A stretch of 64,000 nucleotides of DNA, from contig JAEEHS010000007.1 in the NCBI GenBank assembly GCA_016281015.1, positions 30,829 to 94,828 on the forward strand, given 5' to 3'. The notes beneath the pieces are model-generated. The model had not been told where the DNA came from, searched no databases, and saw nothing but the letters and a program-made list of their open reading frames with translations. Below, piece after piece: positions 300-31,764 of this stretch. A program made the position numbers and the translations under genes. The first letter of the stretch is position 1; each line of letters opens with the position of its first letter. This DNA is from Bacteroidales bacterium. Its GTDB lineage: Bacteria > Bacteroidota > Bacteroidia > Bacteroidales > UBA932.

Positions 300-1693
300 T
301 ATCCAAGAAGTTTAAGCATCGAGGCGGCAGACTGTTCTTCGGCAAACACCCTGGTCACCAGGTGCCCTTCCTTGTCGCGGTCGATGAGAATGTGTTTCGG
401 AGACGGCTGCAGGCAGTGTTTGATGCCGCCGTAGCCGGAAATGGCTTCCTGATAGGCTCCCGTATGGAAAAAGCCGATATAGAGACTTTCCCGCCGGGAA
501 CGGATGGTCGGAAGGAAAATGGCGTTCGCGTGATAATCCGCATTGTAGAAATCCTGGCTGTCGCAGGTCAGTCCGCCCAGGAAAACCCGCTGGTACTCGT
601 CGTTCCACTTGTTGATCGGCAGCAGGATAAAGCGCTGGTTCAGTCCCCAGGTATCCGGCAGGCAGGTCATGAAGGAATTGTCAATCATATACCACTTCTC
701 CCGGTCGTTCTGCTGCTTGATGTCCAGGATCTTGAAAATTGTCGCTCCGCTTTCTCCCACGGTAAAGCTGCCGAACTCGGTGAAAATGTCCGGTTCTTCG
801 ATGCCCATCGCATTGCAGTTCACCTTGATCTGGTTGATGATCTCTTCAACCATATACTCATAGTCGAAATCCATCGCCAGGGAGGTCTTGTTCGGAAGTC
901 CGCCACCAATATTCAAGCTGTCCAGTTCCGGGCAGATGGCTTTCAGCTCACAATAGACCTTCACGCATTTGGACAGTTCGTTCCAGTAGTAGGCGGTGTC
1001 ACGGATGCCCGTGTTGATGAAGAAATGCAGCATCTTCAAATGGAAGTTCGGATGCTTGGCGATGTTGTCTTTGTAGAATCTGACGATGTCGCTGTAGCGG
1101 ATGCCGAGCCGCGAGGTGTAGAAATCGAAGTTCGGTTCCTCTTCGGAGGCGATGCGGATCCCGAGATAGGTTTCTTCATCAATCAGGTCCGCCAGATCCT
1201 CGAATTCATTCTTGTTGTCCAGCACGGGGATAATCTTTTTCCATCCTTCCTTGCGCATCTTGGCGATGTTTTCCACATACTGCGGCCGTTTGAAGCCGTT
1301 GCAGATAATATAGAGGTCCTCTTTTGTGACCGAGCCGTCTTTTTCCAGGGCTTCAATCAGGTCCAGGTCATAGGCGGAAGAGGTCTCCAGGTGGATGTCG
1401 TTGCGGAGGGCCTCATGGAGGACAAAGGCAAACTGGGAACTCTTGGTGCAGTAGCTGTAATGGTAGTCGCCCTGGTAGTCCGCTTTGGCCATGGCCACCT
1501 TGAACAGGCGCTTGGCGCGTTGGATCTGGGAGGAGATCTTCGGCAAATACGTCAGCTTCAGCGGCGTGCCGTAACGATCGATGATTTCCATCAGATCGAT
1601 GTCGTTGAACATCAAATTCCCGTCGACGACCATGAATTCATCCTGCGGGAAGTCGAACGTCTGTTCGACCAGGTCGATGTACTTGTTCTTCAT
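296..1693 (-). CDS. speA: PLP-dependent arginine decarboxylase (biosynthetic, SpeA-like)
   Basis: 465-aa ORF with group IV decarboxylase features (YSYCTKSSQFAFVLHEAL, LNIGGGLP, EFGSFTVGESG, CDSQDFY). Confidence 0.85.
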   Translation of the reverse strand: MKNKYIDLVEQTFDFPQDEFMVVDGNLMFNDIDLMEIIDRYGTPLKLTYLPKISSQIQRAKRLFKVAMAKADYQGDYHYSYCTKSSQFAFVLHEALRNDIHLETSSAYDLDLIEALEKDGSVTKEDLYIICNGFKRPQYVENIAKMRKEGWKKIIPVLDNKNEFEDLADLIDEETYLGIRIASEEEPNFDFYTSRLGIRYSDIVRFYKDNIAKHPNFHLKMLHFFINTGIRDTAYYWNELSKCVKVYCELKAICPELDSLNIGGGLPNKTSLAMDFDYEYMVEEIINQIKVNCNAMGIEEPDIFTEFGSFTVGESGATIFKILDIKQQNDREKWYMIDNSFMTCLPDTWGLNQRFILLPINKWNDEYQRVFLGGLTCDSQDFYNADYHANAIFLPTIRSRRESLYIGFFHTGAYQEAISGYGGIKHCLQPSPKHILIDRDKEGHLVTRVFAEEQSAASMLKLLGY

Positions 1694-1779: not shown

Positions 1780-3990
1780 ATGAATGGCAGAAATATCATC
1801 TTGGGTCTCCTTGCGGGGATTGTGGCTGTCTCCTGCAGTACGACGCGCTCCCTCAGTGACGGAGAGTATCGTCTGGCGAAGAACACCGTTCAGGCGGATG
1901 ATCCTGCCTTCCGAACCTCCCAGCTGAGTTCCTATATCCGGCAGAAACCGAACAGCTCCCTCCTGTTCGACTGGAACCCCTTCCTGTCCATCTACAACTG
2001 GTCCGGCCACAAGACAGACGGCCTGGCCGGCTTTTTCCGCAAGATCGGTGAAGCGCCGGTGGTCTATAATCCCGCCATGGTGGACGAGAGCATCCGGAAC
2101 ATGGAAACGCACCTGACCTACCTCGGCTATTACGGCTCTACGGTGGACAGCCGCGTGGAGGTGAAAGGTCGCAAAGTATATGTCCATTATTTTGTCACGC
2201 TCGGCCGGCGTTACAAAATCCGCTCGGTGGATTTCGAGATTCCCTCTTACGGAAGTTTCGCCGATGATTACGAACGGGACCGGAAGAATGTGACGGTCAA
2301 GGCAGGGGAGTGGCTGAGCGAATCGCTCCTGGAAAAAGAATCCGACCGAAGCGCCCGCTATTTCCGGAACATCGGTTACTATGGCTTCGACAAGCGTTTC
2401 TTCTTCTTCGAGGCAGACACCCTGCAGACCCCGGGGGAGGCCGACCTGCGTATCGCCATCCGGGATTATGGACGGGATGACAATCCTGCCAACGCGACCG
2501 AGCACCAGAAGTATACCATCGGCCGCGTTCGGGTCTCCCACCCCGAGAATGTCCACATCCGTCCCTCCATCATCGAGAACCTGAATGTCCTGCGCCCCGG
2601 CGAGACCTACAGCGAAAGCCGTGTCAACCTGGCCTATACCCGACTATCGAACCTCAATGTGTTCAACAGCATCAATATCACGACGACTCCCGGCGCGGAC
2701 CAGACCGTCGACTGCGACATCAACATGACCACCGGCGGCATCCATGGCTTCAAAGCCAAACTCGAAGCCTCCGTCAACTCCACGGGACTGATTGGTATCT
2801 CCCCGCAGGTCAATTACTTCCATCGGAATATTTTCCGAGGCGGAGAGCAGCTCAACCTCTCGGTCAAAGGCAATTTCCAGTTCAAGCCCAAGACCGACAT
2901 CCGTTCCAATGAGATCAGCCTTTCGAGCAGCATCCGTTTCCCGAAATTCATCGGACTCCCGAACCGGGTGTTCAAAAGCCAGAACATCCCGCGGACGGAC
3001 ATCTCTCTCGCGTTCAGCTACCAGGACCGTCCGGAATACCGCAGGACCATCATCTCGGCCGCATTCGGTTATTCCGGCATCCTCTGGCAGAAGTTCAATT
3101 ACCAGTTCTATCCTTTCCAGGGGAATATTGTCCGCCTCTTCGACATGGACCAGGACTTCCTGTTACGGACCCTGTCGAATCCCTTCCTGGCCAATGCCTA
3201 CAGCGACCACTTCGATCTCGGAATCGGGGGAATCCTGTATTTTACCACGGATCCCAGTCCGCTGCCCCAATCCTCTTTCCGCTATTACCGCCTGTCCTTT
3301 GACCTGTCCGGCAATCTGCTGAGCCTGTTCAACTCAGCCATGCCGACCGACAACTTTGGCAACCATACCATCTGGAACATACCTTACTCCCAGTACGTCC
3401 GGGCTGAATTCCAATTTGCCCAGACACTCCGTTTCGGCCGCGACGAGAAGCATGCCATTGCCTGGAGAGTACTCGCCGGGGCCGGCTATGCCTACGGCAA
3501 TTCTACTTCCATGCCGTTTGAAAAGCAGTTCTATGCCGGTGGCGCCAACTCGATGCGAGGCTGGCAGGCCCGTGCGCTGGGGCCCGGCACGGAAAAGCCC
3601 CTCTACGTCTTTACCATTCCGAGCCAGGCGGGAGAAATGAAACTGGAAGCCAATCTGGAATACCGTTTCCCGCTCTTCTGGAAACTGGAAGGAGCGCTCT
3701 TCGCCGATGCCGGCAATATCTGGGATATCCACGACTGGCTGAAAGACTATCCCGAACTGGAGGCGCTCACGGGCGTATCAGCCTTCCGATTCAACGCCCA
3801 GCTGCCTGAGACCATCGCCTTGGACTGGGGCGTCGGGATCCGCCTGAACCTGAATTTCCTTGTCGCCCGGATTGACATGGGCATGCGGCTCCACGACCCG
3901 CAGCGCGAGCGGGGGGACCGCTGGGTGGGGCCCCGGCAGTGGTTCCCCAGCAACTACGCCCTGCACTTCGGCGTCGGCTATCCTTTCTGA
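1780..3990 (+). CDS. BamA/TamA-family outer membrane protein (POTRA plus surface-antigen barrel), lipoprotein-type signal
   Basis: 736 aa; SCSTTRSLSDGEYRL N-terminus, POTRA-like repeats, C-terminal barrel FYAGGANSMRGWQARALGPG and DWGVGIRLN, terminal aromatic residue. Confidence 0.85.
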   Translation: MNGRNIILGLLAGIVAVSCSTTRSLSDGEYRLAKNTVQADDPAFRTSQLSSYIRQKPNSSLLFDWNPFLSIYNWSGHKTDGLAGFFRKIGEAPVVYNPAMVDESIRNMETHLTYLGYYGSTVDSRVEVKGRKVYVHYFVTLGRRYKIRSVDFEIPSYGSFADDYERDRKNVTVKAGEWLSESLLEKESDRSARYFRNIGYYGFDKRFFFFEADTLQTPGEADLRIAIRDYGRDDNPANATEHQKYTIGRVRVSHPENVHIRPSIIENLNVLRPGETYSESRVNLAYTRLSNLNVFNSINITTTPGADQTVDCDINMTTGGIHGFKAKLEASVNSTGLIGISPQVNYFHRNIFRGGEQLNLSVKGNFQFKPKTDIRSNEISLSSSIRFPKFIGLPNRVFKSQNIPRTDISLAFSYQDRPEYRRTIISAAFGYSGILWQKFNYQFYPFQGNIVRLFDMDQDFLLRTLSNPFLANAYSDHFDLGIGGILYFTTDPSPLPQSSFRYYRLSFDLSGNLLSLFNSAMPTDNFGNHTIWNIPYSQYVRAEFQFAQTLRFGRDEKHAIAWRVLAGAGYAYGNSTSMPFEKQFYAGGANSMRGWQARALGPGTEKPLYVFTIPSQAGEMKLEANLEYRFPLFWKLEGALFADAGNIWDIHDWLKDYPELEALTGVSAFRFNAQLPETIALDWGVGIRLNLNFLVARIDMGMRLHDPQRERGDRWVGPRQWFPSNYALHFGVGYPF

Positions 3991-27544: not shown

Positions 27545-28149
27545 TGGATCTTCACGGAAAGCATGTCATCCTGGGCAGCGGATCTCCGAGACGCCAGGAG
27601 CTTATGAAGCTCCTGGATATTGATTTTGAAGTAGATACAAATAATGACTTCAAGGAGTCCTTTGGGCCGGAAGTTCCCTACGACCAGGTCCCCCGCCTCA
27701 TGTCGGAAGGAAAGTCTCGCGGCTTTCACCGCCCCCTCGAAGCGAATGAAATCCTCATCACCGCCGACACGATGGTCATCCTTCCGCCGGAAGGCGGCCG
27801 CAAGGGCGAGATTCTCGGCAAGCCCCATGACCGGGAAGACGCATGCCGGATGCTACGCGACCTGTCCGGCCGAAAGCACCACGTAACGACGGCTGTCACC
27901 CTGCGGACCGGACGGAAGACGGAGACCTTCATGGACACGACCCAGGTCTGGTTCAAAGCACTCAGCGAAGAGGAAATCTCCTATTACATAGACCATTACA
28001 AGCCCTACGACAAGGCCGGGGCCTACGCCATCCAGGAATGGATCGGCGCCGTCGGCATCTCGCGGATTGACGGTTCTTATTTCAATGTCGTGGGGTTCCC
28101 CGTCCAGCGGGTCTACGAAGAGCTCGTCAGGCTTGCAGCTTCTTTTTGA
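27544..28149 (+). CDS. maf: Maf-like nucleotide pyrophosphatase
   Basis: HVILGSGSPRRQELMKLLDIDFEV...ITADTMVIL...YDKAGAYAIQEWIGAVGISRIDGSYFNVVGFP. Confidence 0.93.
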   Translation: MDLHGKHVILGSGSPRRQELMKLLDIDFEVDTNNDFKESFGPEVPYDQVPRLMSEGKSRGFHRPLEANEILITADTMVILPPEGGRKGEILGKPHDREDACRMLRDLSGRKHHVTTAVTLRTGRKTETFMDTTQVWFKALSEEEISYYIDHYKPYDKAGAYAIQEWIGAVGISRIDGSYFNVVGFPVQRVYEELVRLAASF

Positions 28150-29083
28150 GACAGCGGATCATATCGACGGTCATGGAATCCAGATCGTAGGTCGGTTTCC
28201 AGTCCCATTCCCTTCGCGCACAGCTGTCGTCCATGCTGTCGGGCCAGGAATTGGCAATCGCCTGCCGGACCGGATCCACCTCATAGCGGACTTTCAGGCC
28301 GGGAATATACTCCCGGATCTTGGCGAACAGGGTTTCCGGCTCGAAACTCATGGACGCGATATTGAAGGAGTTGCGGTGAACCAGGCGGGAGGGATCCGCT
28401 TCCAGCAGGTCCACGGCCGCCTGCAGCGCATCCGGCATGTACATCATGTCCATGTACGTCCCCGGTGCGATCGGGCAGACGAACTCCTCCCCTTTCACAG
28501 CCGAATAGTACACCTCGACGGCATAGTCGGTCGTGCCGCCGCCCGGCAGGGTGACATTGGATATCAAGCCGGGAAAACGGACGGAACGGGTATCCACGCC
28601 GTATTTATGGAAATAATAATCGCTCAGAAGTTCCGTGGCGACTTTCGTTACGCCATACATGGAACGCGGACGCTGGATGGTGTCCTGCGGCGTCCCCACA
28701 TGCGGGGTTTCCGGGCCGAACGACCCGATGGACGAAGGGGTAAAAACCGCACAGCCTTTCTCACGGGCCACTTCCAGAATGTTCAGAAGGCCGTTCATCT
28801 GGATATCCCAGGCCAGGAGCGGTTTCTTCTCAGCGACAGCGGAAAGCAACGCAGCCAAGTTGTAAATGGTGTCGATCCGGTACTTGCTAACGATCTCGGC
28901 GAGGGCCTTGGCATCCCGGACATCGGCCACTTCGGCCGGTCCGCTTTCCAGCAGTTCCCCTTTCGGCTCCGCCCCGGGTATATAACCGGCAACAACCGTA
29001 CTGCCGTCGATTTCCCGGCGGATTTTCATGGTCAGTTCCGATCCGATCTGCCCGGTAGAACCGATAACGAGTACATTCTTCAT
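28127..29083 (-). CDS. SDR-type L-threonine 3-dehydrogenase
   Basis: MKNVLVIGSTGQIGSELT...FTPSSIGSFGPETPHVGTPQDTIQRPRSMYGVTKVATELLSDYY; adjacent to kbl. Confidence 0.85.
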   Translation of the reverse strand: MKNVLVIGSTGQIGSELTMKIRREIDGSTVVAGYIPGAEPKGELLESGPAEVADVRDAKALAEIVSKYRIDTIYNLAALLSAVAEKKPLLAWDIQMNGLLNILEVAREKGCAVFTPSSIGSFGPETPHVGTPQDTIQRPRSMYGVTKVATELLSDYYFHKYGVDTRSVRFPGLISNVTLPGGGTTDYAVEVYYSAVKGEEFVCPIAPGTYMDMMYMPDALQAAVDLLEADPSRLVHRNSFNIASMSFEPETLFAKIREYIPGLKVRYEVDPVRQAIANSWPDSMDDSCARREWDWKPTYDLDSMTVDMIRCLKKKLQA

Positions 29084-29194
29084 TCCCGATGTGATTAGCA
29101 AGGCAAATTTAGTGAATTTTCAGAAAAGATATGCATTATCCCGAGAAAATCCATAAATTTGAAAACAGAAACTAACTAACCATCCATAATTATT

Positions 29195-30382
29195 ATGTAC
29201 GGAAAATTCCAAACTTATCTTCAGAATGAGCTGCGCGCCATCGAGGGGGCCGGACTTTATAAGAAAGAACGCATCATCGCTTCGCCCCAGGGAGCGGAAA
29301 TCACCCTGGAGGATGGCAGCAAGGCATTGAACTTCTGCGCGAACAACTATCTGGGGCTCGCCGACAGTGAGCGCCTCGTCGCCGCCGCTGAGAAAGCCAT
29401 GAAACAGCGTGGCTACGGTATGTCCTCGGTCCGCTTCATCTGCGGCACCCAGGACCTTCACCGGCAACTGGAGAAAGCGGTGGCCGCCTATTTCCATACC
29501 GATGACGCAATCCTCTATGCCGCCTGCTTTGACGCCAACGGCGGAGTCTTCGAGCCCTTGTTGACCGCAGAGGATGCCATCATTTCGGACTCCCTGAACC
29601 ACGCCTCCATCATCGACGGCGTCCGCCTGTGCAAGGCCCAGCGCTTCCGCTATGCCAATGCCGACATGGCGGACCTGGAAGAGAAGCTGAAGGAGGCCCA
29701 GAGCTGCCGCTTCCGCATCATTGTCACAGACGGGGTTTTCTCCATGGACGGCAATGTCGCCCCGATGGACAAAATCTGCGACCTCGCCGAAAAATATGAT
29801 GCCATGGTGATGGTCGATGAAAGCCACAGCGCTGGCGTCGTCGGAGCGACGGGACACGGCGTAGCCGAACAGTTCGGCGTCTACGGACGGATCGATATCT
29901 TCACCGGCACCCTCGGCAAAGCCTTCGGCGGTGCTGTCGGCGGTTTCACGACCGGCCGTCAGGAAATTATCGACATGCTGCGCCAGCGCAGCCGTCCTTA
30001 CCTGTTCTCCAACTCCATCCCGCCGATGATCGCCGCCGCCGGTATTGAAATGTTCAAGATGCTCGGGGAATCGGACGAACTCCATGCCCGCCTTCAGGAG
30101 AATGTCAATCACTTCCGCGACAAGATGCTCGCTGCCGGCTTCGACATCAAGCCGACCCAGAGCGCCATCTGCGCGGTCATGCTCTATGATGCGCCCCTTT
30201 CCCAGAAATTCGCGGCGAAAATGGCCCAGGAGGGCATTTTTGTCACCGGTTTCTACTACCCCGTGGTCCCGAAAGGACAGGCCCGGATCCGGGTCCAGCT
30301 CTCGGCCGCCCACAAGAAGGAGCACCTGGACAAAGCCATCGCCGCTTTTATCAAAGTCGGCAAAGAACTTGGAGTCATTTAG
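29195..30382 (+). CDS. kbl: Glycine C-acetyltransferase (2-amino-3-ketobutyrate CoA ligase)
   Basis: Near-consensus Kbl: KEERIIxSPQGAEITxxDGSxxLNFCANNYLGLA, FICGTQDLHRQLE, LNHASIIDGVRLCKA, GTLGKAFGGAVGGF, VTGFYYPVVPKGQARIR. Confidence 0.93.
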   Translation: MYGKFQTYLQNELRAIEGAGLYKKERIIASPQGAEITLEDGSKALNFCANNYLGLADSERLVAAAEKAMKQRGYGMSSVRFICGTQDLHRQLEKAVAAYFHTDDAILYAACFDANGGVFEPLLTAEDAIISDSLNHASIIDGVRLCKAQRFRYANADMADLEEKLKEAQSCRFRIIVTDGVFSMDGNVAPMDKICDLAEKYDAMVMVDESHSAGVVGATGHGVAEQFGVYGRIDIFTGTLGKAFGGAVGGFTTGRQEIIDMLRQRSRPYLFSNSIPPMIAAAGIEMFKMLGESDELHARLQENVNHFRDKMLAAGFDIKPTQSAICAVMLYDAPLSQKFAAKMAQEGIFVTGFYYPVVPKGQARIRVQLSAAHKKEHLDKAIAAFIKVGKELGVI

Positions 30383-30463: not shown

Positions 30464-30501
30464 ATTAGGATTGGCACACGGCTGCCAATCCTAATTTTTT
30501 T
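30464..30501 (+). terminator. Rho-independent terminator downstream of kbl
   Basis: Perfect 13-bp stem ATTAGGATTGGCA/TGCCAATCCTAAT, 6-nt loop CACGGC, followed by TTTTTT. Confidence 0.9.
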
Positions 30502-30577: not shown

Positions 30578-30608
30578 TTTGCAAATTCAAAAAATTGACG
30601 TACCTTTG
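30578..30608 (+). promoter_or_regulatory. Bacteroidetes-type promoter TTTG-N19-TACCTTTG
   Basis: TTTG 30578-30581, TAccTTTG 30601-30608, with A-rich sequence upstream. Confidence 0.7.
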
Positions 30609-30614
30609 TATCCG

Positions 30615-30727
30615 GATTGAGGGAGTGAGGTTCTCTCACCTGCTCAGTCTATTGGTTATTAGTTTTAGTGTTATTAATTATGTGGTTAGTGAGAGCGTCC
30701 GCCTGTGAAGGCCGACACTCTTTTTTT
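30615..30727 (+). ncRNA. Candidate attenuator leader / small RNA ending in a terminator hairpin
   Basis: Starts after the promoter at 30578-30608. Stems GTGAG/CTCAC (30625-30629/30635-30639) and CTCTCAC/GTGAGAG (30633-30639/30689-30695) compete with terminator GAGcGTCcGCCT-GTGA-AGGCcGACaCTC plus T7 (30693-30727). Confidence 0.5.
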
Positions 30728-30786
30728 GCATATATTCCAATTATGTTGTAATTTAGTCCCATGATACAACGTACTAAAACCCAGAT

Positions 30787-31764
30787 ATGAAAAAGATCAT
30801 CCCTCCCGTAGACAAGGCGCTCCTCAAGGCGGAGCTAACGCCAAAGAACCTGTTCCGCGCCACGAACCGGGCTGGAAACGAACTCTACATCGTCGGTCCG
30901 GAATCCGTCAACGTCATCCGGGAAATCGGCCGTCTCCGTGAGATTGCCTTCCGCAACGACGGAGGCGGAACCGGGCAAGCGCTGGATATTGACAAATTCG
31001 ACACCGACCCGGCTTACGGCTACAAGCAGTTGGTCCTTTGGGATCCCACACGCGAGGAAATCATCGGCGGATACCGCTTCTGCATCTGCGACGAGGCTGT
31101 CTTCGACCGCTTCGGTCAGCCCATCCTGACCTCCTCGCACATGTTCCACTTCAGCCGGAAGTTTATCCAGAACTATCTTCCCCATACCGTGGAACTGGGA
31201 CGCAGTTTCATCTCTGTTGAATACCAGAGTTCCAAAAGCGGCGCCAAGGGCCTGTATGCCCTCGACAATCTCTTTGACGGCCTGGTGTCCCTCAGGGCAG
31301 CCTATGCCCCGCGCGTGAAATACTATTTCGGAAAAATGACCATCTATCCGAGCTATCCCGAGGAGGCCCGCGAGATGATCATGTATTTCCTGAAGAAGTA
31401 TTTCGGAAAGAACGCGGACCTGATTGATATCCGGAAAGAGGTGAAAATCAGCAATCCACGCCGCTTCTCGAAAATCTTTCATGGCAGTAATTACAAGGAA
31501 GACTACAAGACCCTGAAGACGGAAGTGCTGAAATTCGGCGTCAGCATTCCTCCGCTGGTCAATTCCTATATGAACCTGTCTCCTTCTATGATTTACTTCG
31601 GTACGGGCATCAACGACGAGTTCGCCGATGTGCTGGACTCCGGCATCCTGATTTCCTATGACGGATTGTATCCGGAGAAAATCGTCCGCCATGCCGAATC
31701 CTTCCTCAAAGAAAGCCTGAGGGCTTTCCGAAACAGGCTGAGACGTTTGCAACGGAAGAAATAA
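30787..31764 (+). CDS. OlsB/GlsB-like GNAT N-acyltransferase (putative hemolysin family; candidate amino-acid lipid synthesis)
   Basis: Bacteroidales acyltransferase pattern YIVGPESVNVIREIGRLREIAFRNDGGGTG...FHFSRKFIQNYLPHTVELGRSFISVEYQ. Confidence 0.65.
   Translation: MKKIIPPVDKALLKAELTPKNLFRATNRAGNELYIVGPESVNVIREIGRLREIAFRNDGGGTGQALDIDKFDTDPAYGYKQLVLWDPTREEIIGGYRFCICDEAVFDRFGQPILTSSHMFHFSRKFIQNYLPHTVELGRSFISVEYQSSKSGAKGLYALDNLFDGLVSLRAAYAPRVKYYFGKMTIYPSYPEEAREMIMYFLKKYFGKNADLIDIRKEVKISNPRRFSKIFHGSNYKEDYKTLKTEVLKFGVSIPPLVNSYMNLSPSMIYFGTGINDEFADVLDSGILISYDGLYPEKIVRHAESFLKESLRAFRNRLRRLQRKK

Follow-up and report, generated by a model that had tools for sequence, protein, structure and literature searches.

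A candidate free-standing small-RNA gene with an invariant core in Candidatus Cryptobacteroides

In the 64,000-nt stretch of DNA analysed here (the window), a promoter and an intrinsic terminator delimit a short transcription unit just upstream of a lipid-synthesis gene that starts at position 30787. An earlier note on this DNA had described the unit as an "attenuator-like leader RNA (or small RNA)"; the question is whether this RNA governs the gene that follows it or is a gene in its own right. On comparison with relatives, we assign a probability of about 0.8 to the reading that this is a free-standing gene for a small RNA. The genus concerned, Candidatus Cryptobacteroides, is large, lives in gut and rumen and is for the most part uncultured. 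A literature search returned no paper naming both Candidatus Cryptobacteroides and sRNA.

Anatomy and structure of the transcription unit

The features of the locus, in window coordinates, are the following.

30464-30501, + strand: terminator of the upstream gene (29195-30382), parting that gene from the small RNA
30578-30608, + strand: promoter of the small RNA, of the sigma-ABfr (Bacteroidota housekeeping) type, TTTG-N19-TACCTTTG, by motif match; kept ahead of the copies in relatives
30609-30727, + strand: small RNA gene of ~115-119 nt, from its fold and its conservation across relatives
30615-30649, + strand: 5' hairpin, GATTGAG (30615-30621) with CTCAGTC (30643-30649), and an inner GTGAG/CTCAC stem; from compensatory changes
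30654-30688, + strand: invariant single-stranded core GGTTATTAGTTTTAGTGTTATTAATTATGTGGTTA, 35 nt, C-free, presumably the functional or seed region; from identity across copies
30691-30727, + strand: intrinsic terminator hairpin and T-run, from fold and compensatory changes
30725-30756, + strand: candidate promoter of its own for the 30787 gene, TTTG-N20-TAATTTAG, with one mismatch in the -7 element; consensus match only
30787-31764, + strand: GNAT-type acyltransferase gene (PF13444), outside the small-RNA unit and usually not beside the RNA in relatives

Both the promoter and the terminator had been placed correctly in the earlier note. Exact matches to TTTG-N19-TACCTTTG number four in the window, against 0.06 expected, and the terminator, with its stem at ~30691-30722 and its T-run at 30721-30727, folds stably (-17.1 kcal/mol for 30685-30728, z -3.6 against shuffled sequences). 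The RNA would start near 30609-30615 and reach its 3' end at the T-run. As a whole, the 114-nt RNA folds at -35.3 kcal/mol (z -3.3 against shuffles), and its minimum-energy structure has the 5' hairpin and the terminator at its two ends, with a U/G-rich, mostly unpaired stretch between them. The strongest stem is GATTGAG/CTCAGTC; neither this stem, nor the 35-nt core, nor the site at 30725-30756 had figured in the earlier description. The latter site overlaps the T-run of the small-RNA terminator and lies between that terminator and the 30787 gene.

The earlier note had also proposed a switch based on a 7-bp antiterminator, and the segments that it named are all there: GTGAG at 30625-30629, CTCTCAC at 30633-30639 and GTGAGAG at 30689-30695, the last two being perfect 7-bp complements. 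By itself such a pairing is weak evidence, because we estimate that ~0.3 perfect 7-bp complements are expected by chance in any 110-nt RNA, and it is absent from the minimum-energy fold. Covariation was assessed on alignment A1, composed of 49 divergent copies. The 5' hairpin and the terminator together showed 137 doubly changed pairs, compared to 46 after shuffling and with none of 500 shuffles as high, the relatedness of the copies making these shuffle statistics overstate independence; the signal is abolished by sliding the pairing partners. Specifically, the GATTGAG/CTCAGTC stem displays double-sided compensatory changes at all 7 pairs, while in the terminator 93% of cells are paired and 9 of the 10 pairs have compensatory changes; covariation support for the inner GTGAG/CTCAC stem is modest. 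When the 7-bp pairing was checked in the homologous loci, no covariation was found (0.067 versus 0.064 shuffled, with 142 of 500 shuffles as high), which is the outcome that the earlier note had itself set down as speaking against the pairing as a conserved switch. A covariance model of the Cryptobacteroides RNA (R1), whose training set includes the window element, matches that element with an E value of 1e-22.

Genomic context, distribution and upstream control

When 120 relatives were searched with the whole region (241 nt), matches of 75-92% identity were obtained in nearly every same-genus genome, and these run from the promoter to the terminator (query positions 1-168 of 241). The 30787-type gene was located in a separate search and lies apart from the RNA: in the relative G019 the RNA maps to C15:10271 (-) and the gene to 24637 (+), and in several others the two are ~3-4 kb apart and in opposite directions. 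In addition, the next downstream gene is on the opposite strand, hence convergent, in 78 of the 116 promoter-type copies. Since the match ends at the terminator and the neighbours change or are mostly convergent, we regard the RNA as an independent gene.

These observations bear directly on the proposal of an attenuator or riboswitch that acts in cis on the 30787 lipid-synthesis gene, CTCTCAC opening the terminator by pairing with GTGAGAG. What speaks in its favour is that the gene, on the same strand, begins 60 bp past a unit with promoter, terminator and a perfect alternative pairing of 7 bp; however, the pairing does not covary, conservation ends at the terminator, the 30787-type gene is kilobases off or elsewhere in relatives, and the next gene is convergent in most promoter-type copies. 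Moreover, the copies linked to tRNA-Cys and those in which the RNA starts at the core (see below) have no antiterminator strand, and no Rfam riboswitch or leader family matches the window at gathering cut-offs. At the family level a leader of this kind fails the tests of a co-directional neighbour and of a covarying antiterminator, and we consider it very improbable. The small-RNA half of the earlier title thus stands, while the attenuator half falls on the missing covariation and on a unit that ends at its terminator. Readthrough from the small RNA into the 30787 gene may occur in the source genome. On the upstream side, window positions 28127-30382 hold divergent epimerase-type (tdh-like) and aminotransferase-type (kbl-like) genes, which are found near the small RNA in many relatives.

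All but seven of the 168 distinct copies (161) have an identical 35-nt core. A genus survey of 400 Candidatus Cryptobacteroides genomes with a 38-nt middle pattern (<=3 mismatches), the genomes surveyed being mostly metagenome assemblies, detected the core pattern in 329 (137 of the 150 of good quality), compared to 0 for the reversed control. Genomes of the genus have 1-4 copies each, the source genome (G000) one. Among 393 genomes of the order, the core was found only in the three that belong to the same genus, and 3-mismatch matches outside the genus were no more frequent than with the reversed control. The invariance of a 35-nt core in hundreds of species suggests that the RNA is a central regulator.

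What precedes this core varies. In most copies a TAnnTTTG promoter precedes it by 43-58 nt, with the hairpin between; in seven copies the promoter lies 13 nt ahead, so that the RNA begins at the core; sixteen copies sit behind a tRNA-Cys gene, the core beginning ~8 nt past the tRNA; and eight or nine carry a sigma-54 site, TGGCAC-N4/6-TTG(C/A), a pattern with 2 occurrences among 1242 ordinary upstream regions. RpoN is encoded in the source genome and in 18 of the 21 genomes searched. The upstream parts are seen from these arrangements to be swappable, the core being served by a sigma-ABfr promoter and hairpin, a promoter leading straight into it, a sigma-54 site or a tRNA-Cys trailer. At one locus (L320), two convergent copies, at 1200-1234 (+) and 3913-3947 (-), each have the promoter leading directly into the core, with a common terminator and differing upstream sequence. 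An inverted pair of copies at L321 was discarded as a contig-end artefact.

Similar designs are known elsewhere. The Qrr sRNAs of Vibrio are several paralogues that share an invariant ~32-nt core and are under sigma-54 control; they resemble the Cryptobacteroides RNA in these respects, but are unrelated in sequence, depend on Hfq, act on quorum-sensing targets and belong to another phylum. Likewise, 3'ETS-leuZ of E. coli is a regulatory RNA made from a tRNA 3' trailer, and the tRNA-Cys copies are comparable in this; the Cryptobacteroides trailer, however, is a complete sRNA module that is also found with its own promoter.

Probable kinship to FopS and proposed mode of action

FopS (Rfam RF04319) of Bacteroides thetaiotaomicron is a multicopy family of paralogous sRNAs, with 12-15 copies, in which a conserved, near-invariant single-stranded 5' stretch is followed by a rho-independent terminator; FopS tunes sugar-uptake genes, repressing SusC-like mRNAs at their start codons, is bound by the RRM protein RbpB and has been described as conserved within Bacteroidaceae (PMC11697453). 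The window RNA has this layout of an unstructured conserved stretch and then an intrinsic terminator, and several paralogues per genome are found in the genus, though a single one in the source genome. The likeness extends to a C-poor core, to promoters that are mostly of the sigma-ABfr type and to the occurrence of copies in viral contigs. The differences are these: the Cryptobacteroides core is without TTTTTCAT on its 5' side and is extended by a terminal ATTATGTGGTTAG, a covarying 5' hairpin or a tRNA-Cys is added in front, copies number 1-4 rather than 12-15, some of them are sigma-54-driven, and the score of the window RNA with RF04319 is far under the gathering cut-off (18.2 bits versus 56). 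The FopS R1 core GTGTTTTTCATGGTATTAGATTTAAGGTTAA was not found in the Cryptobacteroides RNA, in which only TGG-TATTAGATTTAAGGTTAATAA aligns (20/25); the resemblance of the core to FopS is borderline, with p 0.016 (strict) or 0.28 (lax) and a profile p of 0.036. The window RNA was not recovered by a search with model R2 (FopS and sister-genus RNAs), nor was FopS itself detected with the RF04319 model in 37 Cryptobacteroides genomes. Other weak Rfam matches, to GibS (on the wrong strand) and to the L20 leader, were rejected.

Matches to the RF04319 model occur in nine families of the order, in six genomes above the cut-off, and sub-threshold FopS homologues are present in 16 of the 26 genera of the family to which Cryptobacteroides belongs. 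The 20 sister-genus homologues inspected (L337-L356), drawn from the best-scoring, reach 31-39 bits with the FopS model, below the cut-off of 56; all have the core TTTTTCAT(AG)GTTAAGTTTTTAGGTTAA before the terminator and 13 have a sigma-54 site. Their sigma-54 representatives share with the Cryptobacteroides RNA the core plus terminator, a sigma-54 site shortly upstream and the motif AGTTTTAGGTTA, but differ in that score and in retaining TTTTTCAT. An intermediate core, ATATGGTTTTTAGTTTTAGGTTATTAG, was encountered in genus g215, which is weakly matched by the Cryptobacteroides RNA model through two sigma-54-driven copies; it is similar to the Cryptobacteroides core with p 0.0005. Judging from these sequences, the Cryptobacteroides RNA may work like FopS and is probably the diverged FopS counterpart of its genus; we do not call it a FopS, because the direct similarity is borderline and R2 misses the RNA. 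FopS-type sRNAs are indicated across Bacteroidales families, beyond Bacteroidaceae, and appear largely wired to sigma-54 in the family of Cryptobacteroides, where the role of this factor is, to our knowledge, little studied. The Rfam family RF04319 itself appears too narrow, diverged sister-genus homologues falling below its cut-off.

In the mechanism that we propose, the RNA would act in trans from an autonomous gene and be one of several sibling sRNAs in Candidatus Cryptobacteroides. It would be ~115 nt long, with a 5' hairpin for protection, then the unstructured 35-nt core without C, and last the terminator hairpin. The core would either pair with G-poor sequences around the translation starts of mRNAs or bind an RNA-binding protein, and translation would thereby be set much as it is by Bacteroides FopS. 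FopS-like mRNA pairing seems to us evenly balanced between being and not being the mechanism. In the source genome, contiguous core complementarity of >=8 nt was found at the starts of 19 genes versus 20.4 expected, and in the pooled loci complementarity at gene starts showed no excess over shuffled cores; a targeting variant with RNAduplex let large loops through and was uninformative. Some weak signals may be taken as leads only. AATAACC/ATAACCA are among the more overrepresented words near start codons in the pooled loci (14 and 15 versus 6-8); SusC-like starts show slightly better complementarity than those of other genes (p 0.03), with two of the 22 reaching p<=0.05 on their own and the two best at p 0.005 and 0.027; and tdh starts rank best of 16 gene families in core complementarity, unevenly and with different core parts in different lineages. 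As glycine-pathway targets, kbl, tdh and gcvH were set aside, kbl being average among families and tdh inconsistent between lineages in the core part, and the top single target candidates fail correction, the one exception lying ahead of a reading frame that is itself doubtful.

The core might instead act as a sponge, its repeated GGTTATTAG / TGTTATTAA / TGGTTAGT units titrating an RNA-binding protein and not mRNAs, a reading that we hold to be doubtful, yet worth keeping in view. It agrees with the invariance of the full 35 nt, repeats included, and with the lack of complementarity enrichment at gene starts; indeed, as the invariance goes beyond the usual seed length, the partner may be a protein or another fixed RNA. 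Nevertheless, the units are only partly alike, an RRM_1 search gave zero matches in the source genome (84% complete), and the FopS-like layout accounts equally for an unstructured core. A leader peptide or small protein is hardly credible: open frames are visible in the core on inspection, but no codon position of the core varies, length-changing indels occur on both of its sides, and no start codon or frame is common to the copies.

Phage integrases beside the core

Three IMG/VR viral contigs contain the exact core (L295:6140-6171, - strand; L296:5567-5598; L297:809-840), within unrelated flanks, so that the core alone is common to them. In all three a tyrosine integrase gene adjoins the core, giving the block of host/phage identity beside an integrase gene that would mark an attachment site, and each core is then followed by its own terminator hairpin. 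No core match was found in the annotated phages searched. In three fetched host loci, two of them from the same genome, an integrase lies next to the copy, accompanied by a MATE transporter gene and by a further, convergent copy with a sigma-54 site; most copies have no integrase nearby. This arrangement suggests that the core may double as an attachment site in some temperate phages, which would supply a replacement 3' end.

Taken further, the same viral and host neighbourhoods could mean that the core is kept mainly as a DNA site for tyrosine-integrase attachment, its RNA features being incidental. This we judge highly improbable: promoter, compensatory 5' hairpin and terminator accompany the core in host genomes, and most host copies are without a nearby integrase. 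Integrases commonly target conserved RNA genes, and RNA function is therefore expected to have come first. A regulatory RNA under exchangeable control that also serves as an integration site for temperate phages, with the phage terminator restoring the gene upon integration and with a FopS-like ancestor that sigma-54 already controlled in this family, is a composite that we put forward tentatively, expecting it rather to fail in some part than to hold as a whole. Both the coupling of a sibling sRNA to tRNA-Cys and its place beside phage integrases lend themselves to direct tests.

The FopS core was seen between apparent terminase genes in viral contigs L308, L312, L313 and L314, and beside a ParA-type gene in the plasmid-like contig L307 (names from reading the translations); the attachment-site idea was rejected for the viral FopS copies, as their neighbours are structural or plasmid-type genes and not integrases. 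Finally, L319 (3222-5746) and L188 (715-5252), from two genomes, show the same order of a sigma-54 copy of the small RNA, a convergent MATE transporter gene, a tyrosine recombinase gene and a second copy of the small RNA.
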